From positions 1 to 32,339 of the forward strand of contig VGYV01000008.1 of NCBI GenBank assembly GCA_016872855.1: a DNA stretch of 32,339 nt, given 5' to 3'. The stretch is from Planctomycetota bacterium. GTDB lineage: Bacteria > Planctomycetota > PUPC01 > DSUN01. The position numbers and the translations under genes were made by a program. The notes beneath the pieces are model-generated. The model was given only the letters and a program-made list of their open reading frames with translations, ran no database searches and was not told where the DNA came from. Below, one piece after another: positions 8,792 through 27,537 of the stretch (positions are counted from its first letter, which is position 1; each line of letters opens with the position of its first letter).

Positions 8792-10048
8792 TCAGACCCA
8801 GCCGCGGAGCTTGACGGCCTCGGCGACGCGCTGGACGGCGACCGCGTAGGCGGCGAGGCGCATGTGGACCTTGTGGCGCCGCGACGCGGCCAGGACCGCG
8901 TGGTAGGCGTCCGTCATCTTCTTGTCCAGCATCTCGTGCACCTGCTTCTCGGTCCAGTAGAAGTGGTTGAAGTTCTGGACCATCTCGAAGTAGGAGACGG
9001 TGACGCCGCCGGCGTTGCAGAGGAAGTCGGGGATGACGTGGATGCCGTTCTTGTAGAGAATGGCGTCGGCGTCGGGTGTGGTGGGGCCGTTGGCGGCCTC
9101 GGCCACGACCTTGGCCTTCACCCTGCCGGCGTTGGCGCCGGTGATGACGTTCTCGATGGCCGAGGGCCAAAGGATGTCCACGGGGAGCTCGAGGATTTCT
9201 TCGTTGCTGATCGGCTGGGTGCCGGGGGTGCCGGCGACGGAGCCTGTGCGCTTCTTGTGCTCGAGGATGGCCTTGGGGTCGAGGCCGTCCTGGTTCATCA
9301 CGCCGCCCTGGGTGTCGGTGACGGCGACGACCCTGCAGCCGAAGAGCTCCTTGCCGAGGATGGCGGCGAAGGAGCCGGCGTTGCCGTAGCCCTGGACGGC
9401 GACGGTGGCCTTGGCGAGGTCGAGGCCGAGCTCGTTGGCGGCCTCGCGGACGGTGTACCAGCCGCCGCGTGCGGTGGCGTCGCCGCGGCCGGCCGAGCCG
9501 CCGAGCGCCAGCGGCTTGCCGGTGATGACGCCGAAGGCGTTGTGGCCGGCCAGCTTCGAGTATTCGTCCATCATCCAGGCCATGATTTGCGGAGTGGTGT
9601 AGACGTCGGGGGCGGGAACGTCCTTCTCGGGGCCGAGGATGCGGCCGACGGCCTCGACGTAGGCGCGGCTGAGGCGCTCGAGTTCTGTGGCGGACATGTT
9701 CTTCGGGTTGCAGATGACGCCGCCCTTGCCGCCGCCGAGCGGGATGTCCACCACAGAGCACTTCCACGTCATCCACGCGGCCAGCGCCCGCACAGTGTCA
9801 ATCGTCTCCTCCGGGTGGAAGCGGATGCCGCCCTTGGTCGGCCCGCGGGCGTCGTTGTACTGCACGCGGAAGCCCTGGAAGACCTTCACCCTCCCGTCGT
9901 CCATGCGCACGGGAAGGGTCACGTGCAGCTCGCGCATCGGCACGCGCAGGAACGCGCGCATCGCGGGCTCCAGGCCCAGCAGCTCGGCCGCCTCGTCGAA
10001 CTGCTGCTGGGCAATCGCAAACGGGTTCACGCCCTTCTGCTCTGCCAT
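8792..10048 (-). CDS. gdhA: Glu/Leu/Phe/Val dehydrogenase family, glutamate dehydrogenase
   Basis: [69 protein letters not shown]. Confidence 0.93.
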
Positions 10049-10143
10049 CCAGCCTCATCCTTTCTGGCGGGCCGCACCTGGGCCATAGCCATCTCGCCCT
10101 CGCCGACCGCGGAGGCGCCACCAGGCACCCACCGAAATGCGGC

Positions 10144-10186
10144 GGCAAGCGTTGCCGTATTATACGCGCCAGCGTCGGCGTGTCAA
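10144..10186 (-). promoter_or_regulatory. gdhA promoter with overlapping palindrome
   Basis: Reverse strand TTGACA (10181-10186) -N16- TATAAT (10159-10164), then palindrome GGCAA-GCG-TTGCC (10144-10156). Confidence 0.75.
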
Positions 10187-10304
10187 GGCAATTTCAATAA
10201 ACAGACGAGAATCGCCCGTTCGGCCCTAATCGCCGAAAGCCGAAGGCATCGGCAAGTCCGCCCGACGAACTGCGCGGAAAGGGGGCAAATTGCCGTCCCC
10301 GCCC

Positions 10305-18122: not shown

Positions 18123-18181
18123 CGGGCGGCGTGTGATGCGGTTGATTGGGATCGCGCTGCGGGGGGCAGTTCGAGGAGCCA

Positions 18182-19198
18182 GTGAGCGTGGACGCTAAGG
18201 CGAAGCGGCGAGGCGTGAACATCCTGCGCGCGCTGCGCGACGCGGGGAGGCCGCTGGGCGCGAGCCGTCTGGCTCGCGACCTGGAGGCGATGGGAATCGA
18301 CATGAGCCAGCGGACAGTGCGCTACTACCTGGCGATGCTGGACCGCGAGGGGCTGACGCGCAGTTGCGGGAAGCGTGGGCGCGAGATCACGCCGCTGGGG
18401 GAGCAGGAGGTGGCCAACTCGTTCGTCGCGGAGAAGGTGGGCTTCATCGCAGCGAAGATGGATGAGTTGGCGTGCCAGATGACGTTCCACTCCCGGCGGC
18501 GGAGCGGGACGGTGATAATGAACCTCTCCCTGGTGCCCGCGGCCCACATCCAGGAGGCCGTGGTGGAGATGACGGCGGCGTTCGAGGCGGGGCTCGGGAT
18601 GGGGCGGTTCGTGGCCGTGGGGCGGCCTGGGGAGGTGCTGGGGCGGCACCGGGTGGCGGAGGGCCAATTCGCCATCGGCACAGTGTGCAGCGTGAGCATC
18701 AACGGCATCCTGTTGTCGGAGGGGATTCCGGCGGCCTCCCGGTTCGCCGGGCTGTTGGAGATTTCCGACGGGCAGCCGGTGCGGTTCACCGAGATGATCC
18801 ACTATGACGGGACGAGCCTGGACCCGCTGGAGGTGTTCATCAGCGGGCGTCTGACGTCGGTGCGCCAGGCGGCGCGGACCGGGCACGGGGTGATCGGCGC
18901 GAGCTTTCGGGAGATACCCGCCGTGGCGGCGCCGCGCGTGCGCAAGGTGTGCGCCCGGCTGGCGCAGATTGGTCTGGGCGGCATCCTCCTGGTGGGCAAG
19001 CCGAACCGCCCGCTCCTCGAGGTCCCTGTGCCCGAGGGGCGAGCGGGCCTGGTGGTCGTCGGCGGGCTGAACCCTCTGGCGGCCGTCCAGGAGGCGGGCA
19101 TCCCGACCCACAACAAGGCGCTCACCGGCCTCTACGAGTTCGAGCGCCTGGCCTCCTTCCGCGAGCTTGGGGCGCTGGTCGGGGGCGTGCACGCATGA
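18182..19198 (+). CDS. nrpR: NrpR-family nitrogen regulator (winged helix + DUF128)
   Basis: VDAKAKRRGVNILRALRDAGRPLGASRLARDLEAMGIDMSQRTVRYYLAMLDREGLTRSCGKRGREITPLG HTH; MNLSLVPAAHIQEAV..., VGTVCSVSINGILL-like core, GLNPLAAVQEAGIPT. GTG start behind AGGAG. Confidence 0.82.
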   Translation: MSVDAKAKRRGVNILRALRDAGRPLGASRLARDLEAMGIDMSQRTVRYYLAMLDREGLTRSCGKRGREITPLGEQEVANSFVAEKVGFIAAKMDELACQMTFHSRRRSGTVIMNLSLVPAAHIQEAVVEMTAAFEAGLGMGRFVAVGRPGEVLGRHRVAEGQFAIGTVCSVSINGILLSEGIPAASRFAGLLEISDGQPVRFTEMIHYDGTSLDPLEVFISGRLTSVRQAARTGHGVIGASFREIPAVAAPRVRKVCARLAQIGLGGILLVGKPNRPLLEVPVPEGRAGLVVVGGLNPLAAVQEAGIPTHNKALTGLYEFERLASFRELGALVGGVHA

Positions 19199-22679: not shown

Positions 22680-23840
22680 ATGACCGAAGCCCATGAAGCC
22701 GTCATTGCCCTCGAGGATGGCCGCCTCTTCCCCGGCCGCTCCTTCGGCGCGCCTGGCACCCGCACCGGCGAGGTGGTCTTCAACACCTCCATGACAGGCT
22801 ACCAGGAAATCCTCACCGACCCCTCCTACTCCAACCAGATCGTCACGATGACCTATCCGCTGATCGGCAACTACGGGGTGAACCCCGACGACGTGGAGTC
22901 GGGCCGCATCCAGGCCGAGGGGCTCATCGTCAAGGAGGCCTGCCGCATCCCCAGCAACTGGCGGTCGCGCCAGTCGCTGCCCGACTACCTGGCCGCCCAG
23001 GGCGTCATCGGCATCGAGGGGGTGGACACCCGCGCCCTCACCCTCCACATCCGCACGGCGGGCGCGATGAAGGCCGCAATCTCCACCAACGGCCATTCCC
23101 CCGATGAGCTTGTCGCCATGGCCCGCGCCTGGCCCGGCCTCGTCGGCCGCGACATCGTCGAGGGCGTCACCTGCCGAGAGCCCTACCAATGGGATTCAGC
23201 CATTGCCGATTGCAGATTGCAGATTGCAGATTGCAGATCGGAAATCGGAAATCGGAAATCGGGAATCGGAAATCAACGCTTCGATGTGGTGGCCTACGAC
23301 TTCGGGGCGAAGCATAACATCCTCCGCCTCCTCGCCGCAAGCGGATGCCGGGTCACTGTGGTGCCCGCATACACCCCGGCCGCCGAGGCCCTGGCCCTGA
23401 AGCCTGATGGCGTGCTACTCTCGAACGGCCCCGGCGACCCTGCGGCCCTCACGCGCATCATGCCCGAGGTGCGCAAGCTCATCGGCGAGATCCCCATCTT
23501 CGGAATCTGCCTCGGACACCAGCTCCTCGGCCTCGCTCTGGGCGGCAAGACCTTCAAGCTCAAGTTCGGCCACCGCGGCGCAAACCAGCCCGTCCGCGAG
23601 CTTGCCACAGGCCGCGTGGACATCACGAGCCAGAACCACGGCTTCTGCGTGGACATCAAATCGCTTCCCGCTGACGAGGTGGAGCTGACCCACGTGAATC
23701 TGGACGACGGGACCCTCGAAGGCTTCCGCCACCGCAAGCTCCCCCTCTTCGCAGTCCAGTACCACCCCGAGGCCTCCCCCGGCCCGCACGACGCGAGCCA
23801 TTTGTTTGAGCGATTCGTCGGCATGATGGACAGGAGATGA
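22680..23840 (+). CDS. carA: carbamoyl-phosphate synthase small subunit, with repeat-derived insertion
   Basis: [85 protein letters not shown]. Confidence 0.96.
23204..23274. repeat. heptamer array inside carA (GATTGCA)n + (AATCGGA)n
   Basis: GATTGCAGATTGCAGATTGCAGATTGCAGATCGGAAATCGGAAATCGGAAATCGGGAATCGGAAATC, encodes [26 protein letters not shown] in frame. Confidence 0.9.
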
Positions 23841-23844
23841 GGGC

Positions 23845-23970
23845 GTGTCGCCCAAATGGTCAACTCGTTGGGAGTCCCGCCTTCAGGCGGTCTTCTCTCG
23901 CCCCAATCCGCCTAAAGGCGGGACTCCGAACGGGGTTGATCCCCTGAACTGGGTTTGGGCGATGCGCCCA
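23845..23970. repeat. large imperfect palindrome after carA containing the GGAGTCCYGCCTTCAGGCRG motif
   Basis: GGAGTCCCGCCTTCAGGCGG (23871-23890) vs CCGCCTAAAGGCGGGACTCC (23908-23927), one mismatch; outer arms CGCCCAAA...CAACTCGTT / AACGGGGTTGA...TTTGGGCG. Confidence 0.8.
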
Positions 23971-23980
23971 TGAGTTTTGG

Positions 23981-24136
23981 CTCCCCACCGATCTTGTGTC
24001 GGTGGGAGCAGGGATTGACAGCTAGAGCCACGCACCCACCCCCCGCCCCCCTCCCTTTCAGGGAGGGGGCAGGGGGAGGGTAGGGCCACGCGGTAGCTTC
24101 CAATCCCCCGCCCCACCGAGACAAGCTCGGTGGGGG
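23981..24136. repeat. three consecutive GC-rich hairpins
   Basis: CCCACCGATCTTGTGTCGGTGGG; CCGCCCCCCTCCCTTTCAGGGAGGGGGCAGG; CCCCACCGAGACAAGCTCGGTGGGG. Confidence 0.8.
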
Positions 24137-24149
24137 CGATGGGACGTCT

Positions 24150-24184
24150 GAAATCGGCAATCGGAAATCGGAAATCGGAAATCC
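24150..24184. repeat. heptamer array (AATCGGA)n upstream of guaA
   Basis: GAAATCGGCAATCGGAAATCGGAAATCGGAAATCC; same unit as the array inside carA. Confidence 0.85.
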
Positions 24185-24187
24185 GCT

Positions 24188-25810
24188 ATGACCCACGACA
24201 CGATCCTTATCCTCGATTTCGGCTCGCAATACAGCCAGCTCATCGCGCGGCGGGTGCGCGAGCACCACGTCTACTGCCGCCTCGAGCCGTGCAACGTGCC
24301 CTTCGAGCGCATCCGCGCCCTGCAACCGAGGGGAATTATCCTGTCGGGCGGGCCGTCGAGCGTCTGGGCCGCGGGCGCGCCCACGTGTGACCCCGCCGTG
24401 CTCGACCTGGGCGTGCCGGTGCTGGGCATCTGCTACGGCATGCAGCTCCTGGCCCAGATGGCCGGCGGCCGCGTCGAGGGCGGCCACGCCGGCGAATACG
24501 GCCCCGCCACCATCGAGATCATCGCAGACGACAGACGGCAGACGGCAGACGGCAGACGGCAGACGGCAGAGAGCAGAGCTAAGCAAGAGGCGAGCGTGCC
24601 GGTCGCGGCTGCCAGCCTGTTCGCCGGTTGCGAGGCCACCGAGAAGGTGTGGATGAGCCACGGCGACCGCGTGGTCGAGCTGCCGCCCGGCGCGGCCGTC
24701 ACGGCTCGCACCCCCACGGTCGAGGTCGCCGCCTTCGCCGACCCGGCCCGCCGCATCTACGCCGTGCAGTTCCACCCCGAGGTGAGCCACACGCCCCAGG
24801 GCAGCCGCATGCTCCACAACTTCCTCTTCGACATCTGCGGCTGCAAGGGCGATTGGACCATGGCCTCGTTCGTCGCGGAGGCCGTGGCCGACATCAAGCA
24901 GCGGGTCGGCGCCGACCGCGTCGTCTGCGGCCTCAGCGGCGGCGTGGACTCCACAGTCGTGGCCACGCTCATCCACCGCGCCATTGGCGACCAACTGACC
25001 TGCATCTTCGTGGACAACGGGGTGCTGCGCGCCGGCGAGGCCGAAGAGGTCGTGCGCATGGCCCGCGACGACATCAGGCTGAACCTGGATGCGGTGGACG
25101 CCGCCGAGCGCTTCCTTGGCCGCCTGGCCGGGCTGAGCGACCCCGAGGAGAAGCGGCTGGCCATCGGCGACGAATTCGTCCGCGTCTTCACCGAGGAGGC
25201 CGAGCGGCTTGGCGGCGCGCGCTTCCTGGCCCAGGGCACGCTGTTCCCCGACCTCATCGAAAGCAAGTCGGCCTTCGGCGGGCCGTCCGCCCGCATCAAG
25301 AGCCACCACAACGTCGGCGGCATGCCCGCCTGGAGCCAGTTCCAGCTCATCGAGCCGTTGCGCGAGCTGTTCAAGGACGAGGTGCGCGAGCTGGGCAGGG
25401 AGCTTGGCCTCCCTCACGGCATCCTGCACCGTCAGCCCTTTCCCGGCCCAGGGTTGGCCGTGCGCGTCGTGGGGGAGGTCACTCGCTCGGGGCTGAGCAT
25501 CCTGCGCGAAGCCGATCTCATCGTGCAGGAGGAGATGCGGAAGTGGGAGCACTACGGCACCATCTGGCAGTCGTTCGCCGTCCTCCTCCCCGTCAAGAGC
25601 GTCGGCGTGATGGGCGACGCGCGGACCTACGAATTCGCCGTCGCGGTCCGCGTGGTCTCCAGCCGCGACGGGATGACGGCCGATTGGGTGCGGCTGCCCT
25701 ACGACCTGATGGCGCGCCTCTCGGCCCGCATCATCAACGAGGTGGACGGCGTGAACCGCGTGCTCTACGACATCAGCTCGAAGCCGCCGAGCACGATTGA
25801 ATGGGAGTGA
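24188..25810 (+). CDS. guaA: GMP synthase (glutamine-hydrolysing), with repeat-derived insertion
   Basis: [46 protein letters not shown]-terminal [12 protein letters not shown]. Confidence 0.97.
24524..24580. repeat. heptamer array inside guaA (GACGGCA)n
   Basis: GCAGACGACAGACGGCAGACGGCAGACGGCAGACGGCAGACGGCAGAGAGCAGAGCT; encodes [26 protein letters not shown] in frame. Confidence 0.9.
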
Positions 25811-25813
25811 GCC

Positions 25814-25915
25814 GTCGTGCCGCGTCCCGCGTCCCGCGTGCCAAGAGAGGAGCAAAGCCTGGCCTTCTCTTGCCTTGGCACGCGGGACGCGGCACGAGGC
25901 ACGCGACCCGGAATT
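25814..25915. repeat. heptamer hairpin G (units CGCGTCC / GGCACGC)
   Basis: TGCCGCGTCCCGCGTCCCGCGTGCC - AAGAGAGGAGCAAAGCCTGGCCTTCTCTTGCCTT - GGCACGCGGGACGCGGCACGAGGCACGCG. Confidence 0.88.
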
Positions 25916-25928
25916 GTGGATGGCCGCG

Positions 25929-26654
25929 ATGATTGCAATCGTTGACTACGGCCTCGGCAATCTGAAGAGCGTGAAAAGCGCCTGTGATCGTCTCGGCGTC
26001 GATGGGACGGTCACGTCGGATGCCGCCGCCATTCTGGGGGCCGACGGTGTGATCTTCCCCGGCGTCGGGGCCTTCCAGCGCGCGATGGAGAACCTGGGCA
26101 AGTTGGGCCTCGTCGAGCCATTGCGCCAGGTCGCCCACTCGGGCAGGCCATTCCTCGGCATCTGCCTGGGCCTCCAGCTCCTCTTCGCCGAAAGCTCCGA
26201 GCACGGGCACCACGAGGGACTGAACATCATCCCAGGCAAGGTCGTGCGCTTCGAGCCAGGAGCCGGCCGAAGACTGCCTGAAGGCAGGACTCCAAACTCG
26301 AGCGCGTCTGCGTTCGGAGTCCTGCCTTCAGGCAGTCTTGGGGGGCCGCCAGGCGCGGACGAGCCGCTGAAGGCCCTCAAGGTGCCCCACATGGGCTGGA
26401 ACCAGGTGAGGCAGGAGCGGCCATCGCCCCTCTTCGAGGGGGTGCCCGACCGCAGCTTCTTCTACTTCGCCCACTCGTACTACGCGGAGCCGGACGATGC
26501 CGCCGTCGCCATCGGCTCGACCGAGTACGGCGTTCGCTTCGCCTCGGCGGTCCAGAAGGGCAACGTCTTCGCCACGCAGTTCCACCCCGAGAAGTCGGGG
26601 CCGGTGGGGCTGAGGATGCTCGAGAATTTCTGTGGGTTGTGCAGACGCCGTTGA
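25929..26654 (+). CDS. hisH: imidazole glycerol phosphate synthase glutaminase subunit, with repeat-derived insertion
   Basis: MIAIVDYGLGNLKSVKSA; FLGICLGLQLLFAES; VPHMGWNQV; ATQFHPEKSGPVGLRMLENF. Confidence 0.95.
   Translation: MIAIVDYGLGNLKSVKSACDRLGVDGTVTSDAAAILGADGVIFPGVGAFQRAMENLGKLGLVEPLRQVAHSGRPFLGICLGLQLLFAESSEHGHHEGLNIIPGKVVRFEPGAGRRLPEGRTPNSSASAFGVLPSGSLGGPPGADEPLKALKVPHMGWNQVRQERPSPLFEGVPDRSFFYFAHSYYAEPDDAAVAIGSTEYGVRFASAVQKGNVFATQFHPEKSGPVGLRMLENFCGLCRRR
26270..26339. repeat. perfect 24-bp inverted repeat inside hisH
   Basis: AAGACTGCCTGAAGGCAGGACTCC (26270-26293) / GGAGTCCTGCCTTCAGGCAGTCTT (26316-26339); motif shared with 23871-23894. Confidence 0.92.
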
Positions 26655-26781: not shown

Positions 26782-27537
26782 ATGGTCGCCAAGCGCATCA
26801 TCCCCTGCCTCGACGTGAAGAACGGCCGCGTGGTGAAGGGCCGGTCGTTCGTGAGCCTGCGCGACGCGGGCGACCCGGTCGAGTGCGGCCGGGCCTACAG
26901 CGACGCGGGGGCCGATGAGCTGGTCTTCCTCGACATCACGGCGACGCTGGAGGCCCGCAAGACCATCCGCGAGCTGGTCAGCCACGTGGCCGAACAGGTC
27001 TTCATCCCCTTCACCGTGGGCGGCGGCATCCGCGGCCTGGACGACATCCGCGCCCTGCTCAAGGCAGGCGCCGACAAGGTTTCGATCAACACCGCCGCCG
27101 TCCGCCACAAGCGCCTCATCCGCGAGGGGGCCGAGGCATTCGGCGCGCAGTGCATCGTCGTGGCCGTGGACGCCAAGCGCGTGGGGCAGGGCTGGGAGGT
27201 GTTCGTGGACGCCGGCCACACCCCCACGGGCCTGGACGCTCTGGCCTGGGTGCGCGAGGCCGAGGAGCTGGGCGCGGGCGAGATTCTGCTCACCTCGATT
27301 GACGCCGACGGCCACACGGCGGGCTACGACATCGAGCTGACCGCGGCGGTGAGCGAGGCCGTGAGCATCCCCGTCATCGCCTCGGGCGGCGCCGGCGGCC
27401 CGGAGGACATGTTGCGCGTCCTCACCGAGGGCCGGGCCGACGCGGCGCTTGCCGCTTCCATTTTCCATTACGGTCACTATACTATCGCGGCGGTCAAGGA
27501 CTACCTGCGGGACCGCGGCGTCCACGTGAGGTCATGA
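26782..27537 (+). CDS. hisF: imidazole glycerol phosphate synthase cyclase subunit
   Basis: [54 protein letters not shown]. Confidence 0.97.

Follow-up and report, generated by a model that had tools for sequence, protein, structure and literature searches.

A dimer of high-copy palindromic repeats lies in frame within hisH of a Planctomycetota bacterium

The palindrome in hisH

The window, by which we mean the whole analysed stretch of 32,339 nucleotides, carries carA, guaA and hisH, and hisH is followed by an intact open reading frame that we read as hisF. The features are collected in Table 1. As the start of hisH we took the second in-frame ATG (25929), the other ATG being at 25920, and the genome has only this one hisH.

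Table 1. Features of the hisH region, of the carA-guaA intergenic region and of tandem repeat units elsewhere in the genome.
Feature	Position	Strand	Basis
Intergenic 129-bp element between carA and guaA	23841..23969	+	inverted repeats, sequence, further copies of its class
hisH	25929..26654	+	GATase Pfam match, solved HisH matches, orthologue alignments
Left REP unit (24-mer plus AAAC), GGAG head pointing inward	26270..26297	-	exact family match; head and stem anatomy
Variable inner spacer of the hisH dimer	26298..26311	.	family dimers have 20-22 nt gaps and RAAC...GTTY ends, with varying middles
Right REP unit (GTTC plus 24-mer)	26312..26339	+	exact family match
Inner flank, from REP dimer to right outer repeat	26340..26357	+	weak class match, P = 0.053
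Diverged right outer inverted repeat (147-bp composite class)	26358..26381	+	matrix score 15.0
ORF after hisH, read as hisF, intact	26782..27537	+	ORF list; assigned by inspection of sequence and position
Tandem solo REP-like units	L131 4761-4844; L124 16728-16781; L150 3640-3690

Directly after GKVVRFEP, hisH contains an insert with a perfect 24-bp inverted repeat. Its left arm, AAGACTGCCTGAAGGCAGGACTCC, covers 26270-26293 and its exact reverse complement 26316-26339, with 22 nt between the two 24-mers. The pairing continues for 4 nt inward (AAAC / GTTC), giving arms of 28 nt. Shuffled versions of the window contain no match to the 24-mer, and ORF 25797-26654 runs open across the repeat and encodes RRLPEGRTPNSSASAFGVLPSGSLGG. 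Thus, the perfect repeat, its reading frame and the peptide are as described in an earlier note on this DNA.

As single-stranded DNA or RNA the palindrome is predicted to fold very stably, at -69 kcal/mol (z = -9.2), and it lies directly upstream of the hisF-like ORF. As the earlier note remarked, an RNA hairpin of this kind could affect translation. It could be speculated that this is a selected regulatory hairpin, i.e., that the structure of the hisH mRNA controls translation or RNase III cutting and tunes HisH against HisF. However, many unrelated, mostly intergenic sites have the same dimer, the orthologues lack it, and no sign that the hisH copy is under selection was found. We regard such an origin as very improbable.

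A repeat family with tagged units and composite elements

The genome-wide count that the earlier note had called for gave 757 copies of the 24-mer in 8.88 Mb of genome when up to 3 mismatches were allowed, while the reversed 24-mer used as a control gave 0; a palindromic repeat spread over the whole genome thus sits in hisH. There are 41 perfect dimers. Among 59 relatives, more than one copy of the 24-mer was found solely in a single genome of the same family, which has 10. The repeat family is lineage-specific and high-copy. For the exact hisH dimer there was no match in the named genomes, from which the source genome is possibly absent.

The unit has the layout GTTY-G[G/T]AG-TYC, followed by a 6-bp stem with a TC loop and then TCTT. 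The head is GGAG in 156 of 219 units and GTAG in 61, and the variant with the canonical GTAG head has 127 copies. When only the head was searched for (GTTNG[GT]AGTYC, 2 Mb), 171 of the 175 sites ran into a stem with at least four of six pairs, 137 of them with all six, and the sequence of the stem changes on both sides. A CT follows within 4 nt of the stem in 84% of these head-anchored sites, a position that would be compatible with cleavage at CT by a Y1 transposase. The family therefore shares with GTAG-type REPs and REPINs a short palindrome (20-40 bp) in high copy number, as well as a GTAG-like tag, here with GGAG as a departure at position 2, that stays unpaired and keeps a constant position on the 5' side of the stem. 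It also forms the inverted doublets that make up one hairpin in REPINs, as seen from the 20-22 nt gaps, the perfect dimers and the fold of the hisH copy. Judged by this anatomy, the feature in hisH, an element left unnamed in the earlier note, fits a head-tagged, REPIN/BIME-like REP dimer.

REPs that face inward in dimers are 20-22 nt apart, those in outward dimers mostly 9-10 nt, and others are solos. Many of the dimers are enclosed, at nearly constant distances, by outer inverted repeats of at least four unrelated kinds. For the largest composite class examined, 34 copies were aligned; the core is 70 nt long in 33 of these, and the full length of the class, counted from the aligned copies, is 147 bp or 49 codons. 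In the window, the 129-bp element between carA and guaA is also a composite: the outer repeats GGGCGTGTCGCCCAAA / TTTGGGCGATGCGCCC hold an outward-facing REP pair at 23871-23894 and about 23908-23932. The first of these is the near-copy of the arm, in opposite arrangement, that the earlier note had pointed out after carA; it is the C-type half of the pair.

The hisH copy is a member of the 147-bp class. On a position matrix built from 33 composite copies, its right outer repeat scores 15.0, while the highest score among 20,000 random genomic segments is 3.1, and the dimer spacer weakly resembles the class (P = 0.0005). The same matrix gave no signal for a left outer repeat in hisH, sliding included, and the 35 nt leftward of the dimer score as random (P = 0.41); the left outer repeat of this copy is truncated or decayed. 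Since the right outer repeat is recognisable to 26381, the insert is longer than the 70 bp originally proposed and its right end lies at about 26381. Its left border can be placed only to about 26252-26269. In the protein, this corresponds to about 30-40 extra residues.

The nearly constant distance between the outer repeats of the composites, 129-139 bp, would suit a MITE moved by a DDE transposase, in which the outer inverted repeats serve as the mobile ends and carry the REP dimer as mere passenger DNA. However, unrelated outer repeats surround the same REP dimer, and REPs also occur solo or without recognised outer repeats. A MITE shares its terminal repeats with a full-length transposon, but the 2-Mb sample contains neither a longer element with the same ends nor any far-apart pair of the same outer repeats. 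Further, a target duplication is not evident by eye in the aligned flanks. We consider a MITE unlikely.

Placement in genes and the HisH protein

A home-made gene finder (order-4, three-periodic) was run on 1.97 Mb and assigned 77% of the DNA as coding. Among the 50 inward dimers in this sample, 38 fall between genes, 4 across gene ends, 5 near predicted starts and 3 inside genes; these fractions are approximate, as a likely gene of the window (18146-19198), at the least, escaped the gene finder. Under random placement, this avoidance of coding DNA has P ~1e-26. The dimers are thus mainly extragenic, as in GTAG-type REPs and REPINs, and with only 3 of 50 well inside genes, the hisH copy is a rare tolerated case. 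The two other internal dimers are both at locus L100, one being part of a tandem array and the other lying 85 nt from a predicted start, which leaves hisH as the clearest internal case.

At L100 (9254-9442), three REP-derived units follow one another in tandem every 60 bp, in a gene predicted at 8950-10212 that has a Beta-lactamase Pfam domain. Tandem solo REP-like units were also seen in other predicted genes, with a period of 30 bp (10 codons) or close to it and with the frame kept (Table 1).

Outside the gene-finder sample, anmK (L190) carries an insert of 22-23 residues at the place where its alignment to solved AnmK-family kinases breaks and then resumes. An ORF at L194, for which a Pfam search returned no family, contains a full composite in the same phase as hisH. 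These in-frame dimers, in AnmK and in a membrane protein, are comparable to that of hisH, and solo units lie inside LpxK, a DUF763 gene and others. Not every match in an open frame is an insertion. Of 20 places with long frames, only hisH, the anmK copy and the L194 ORF look coding on both sides, as judged from coding potential; most of the others are elements next to genes or frames that are open by chance in GC-rich DNA. Two solo matches in genes (L130 15580 and L140 14033) look like chance, being near the 5-mismatch limit.

The assembly is fragmented into 1143 contigs, with 89.5% completeness and 5.8% contamination, and the element occurs in it many times, so unrelated parts of contigs might have been joined through the repeat. 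However, each flank carries one half of a single hisH, and the two halves are in frame. Also, the spacer of the hisH copy is unlike that of every other listed perfect dimer, its outer repeat has diverged in its own way, and an equivalent in-frame insertion exists in anmK. An assembly artefact is the most improbable of the explanations that we weighed.

In the alignments, the insert does not belong to the conserved parts of HisH. The segment between G-x-V-V-R-F and L-K-x-P-H-M-G-W-N is short in the HisH of 18 relatives. Of 55 HisH proteins from named genomes, all but two have 5-15 residues where there are 43 here; one of the two is merely a masked sequence and the other, L260, has an unrelated insert. 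In all, the segment is short in all but one (L260) of about 73 HisH compared. The earlier note had stated that HisH is normally short at this point, and that conservation of the insert in HisH of unrelated lineages would speak against its reading; the first agrees with both sets of alignments, and the orthologues are without the insert.

L260 (1001-1732) is the HisH of Planctomycetota bacterium isolate J080, and its insert is in the same loop and of similar size. From this unrelated insert and from the variation in segment length among the orthologues, the loop looks permissive.

The glutaminase catalytic residues C79, H219 and E221 are retained and are invariant in the alignment. An AlphaFold model made with 42 sequences has a mean pLDDT of 88 and a pTM of 0.84, with most of the core at 95-99. 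Residues 115-118 and 120-142 are below 50 and lie between the strands 101-107 and 154-162. The HisH fold is thus predicted to be intact, and the insert to be disordered. The conserved PHMGWN motif starts only a few residues past the insert, so an effect on HisF docking is possible.

Origin of the insert and relation to known systems

We suggest that the feature in hisH is very probably a GTAG/GGAG-headed, REPIN/BIME-like REP dimer within a 147-bp composite, which arrived as a mobile element and entered a permissive loop of HisH in frame. It would have come as a non-autonomous element, and its most likely mover would be a REP-associated Y1 tyrosine transposase (RAYT) acting on single-stranded DNA. 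It may then have persisted because the element is open in this phase, its length keeps the frame, the loop between the two strands is disordered and the catalytic residues are kept. The insert probably has no beneficial role. Three observations stand against this origin: the majority head is GGAG and not GTAG, the left outer repeat is undetected in hisH, and no Y1 gene of the assembled genome or of a same-family genome (G001) is flanked by the family.

RAYT genes are usually bracketed by REPs. The genome has 19 Y1_Tnp genes, and those at L031, L033-L036, L044 and L049 are bracketed by other palindromic high-copy repeats, e.g., CCACGGGCGTGAGCCCGTGG, GCCCGCGAATGCGGGC and CCGGCGGCTTACGCCGCCGG. 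One genome thus appears to hold many RAYT-REP pairs. However, none of these 19 loci, which come from an assembly that is 89.5% complete, and none of 4 loci in a genome of the same family (G001) has a Y1_Tnp gene flanked by the hisH-type REP. The flanks hold other REP families only, apart from one pair of GTAG variants near L047, which is no more than expected by chance. As orphan REP families are known, the assignment as a REP rests on the anatomy. The mover may be absent from the incomplete assembly, may have been lost, or may be of another kind.

The closest parallels are the GTAG-superfamily REPs. In the main text of Di Nocera et al. 2013 (PMC3733652), these are described as a tag, a 2-nt gap, a short stem, a TY loop and a short tail, and they form mostly intergenic dimers in which the tag lies inside (TT type) and the spacer varies between 20 and 100 bp. 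The intragenic dimers reported there encode 20-30 residues and occur in Opitutus, Rickettsia, Thauera and others; in Anabaena variabilis dimers are enclosed in longer palindromes. REPs joined to unrelated stem-loops have also been described. The family studied here resembles those described (PMC3733652) in its tagged palindrome, the 2-nt gap, the tag-inside dimers and the mostly intergenic location with some copies in genes. It differs from them in its GGAG majority and in the several unrelated outer repeats around the same dimer, while the published families also vary at tag position 2. hisH is not among the genes named in the main text of that paper.

In the REP of Marinomonas REPtron Mb (PMC8266576), 2 bases separate GTAG from a stem of 5 bp. 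With CT substrates, the enzyme selects strongly only at the last two positions of the tetranucleotide (PMC8266576), which would allow a GGAG head. There, enzyme and repeat were studied together, whereas here the repeat is known without its enzyme. Similarly, the REPINs of Bertels and Rainey 2011 (PMC3116915) are inverted REP doublets forming one long hairpin, in high copy and extragenic, as here; however, in our case no associated RAYT gene was found and there is no sign of excision or current movement.

In layout, the insert also resembles the Rickettsia palindromic elements (RPE, reviewed in PMC10969869), i.e., palindromic elements of about 100-150 bp found in frame in unrelated protein genes, as in hisH, anmK and the L194 ORF. 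However, RPEs are intragenic far more often (PMC10969869), while the dimers here strongly avoid coding DNA and only 3 of 50 inward dimers are internal. It can be imagined that the composite REPs of this lineage have become coding-compatible (at 147 bp they span 49 codons and are open in some phases), that enzymes have repeatedly gained similar disordered peptides from them, and that some of these are now used, e.g., in tuning HisH-HisF assembly or in hairpin-mediated expression; we give this extension very little credence.

An intragenic REP dimer is thus ordinary in kind, while the one in hisH is a rare and well-supported instance in a central enzyme. It offers a clear case of a REP dimer tolerated in core metabolism, with orthologues without the insert, a structural rationale and an estimate of its rarity in the genome, and it is a natural test of how a long perfect mRNA hairpin together with a disordered insert affects an enzyme. 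The genome itself combines many REP families; several of these come with a Y1 transposase of their own, and one has no visible partner.

Two neighbouring genes of the window also carry repeats. In-frame inserts made of 7-bp tandem repeats (ATTGCAG, AATCGGA, GACGGCA) are present in carA (23206-23275) and guaA (24530-24570), encoding 24 and 20 residues, respectively, so that carA, guaA and hisH are three amidotransferase-domain genes of one window with repeat inserts. Before guaA, at 24035-24076 and 24147-24188, there is a C-rich/G-rich inverted repeat, together with a tandem repeat of 14 bp, TCTGAAATCGGCAA, that adjoins the start of guaA.
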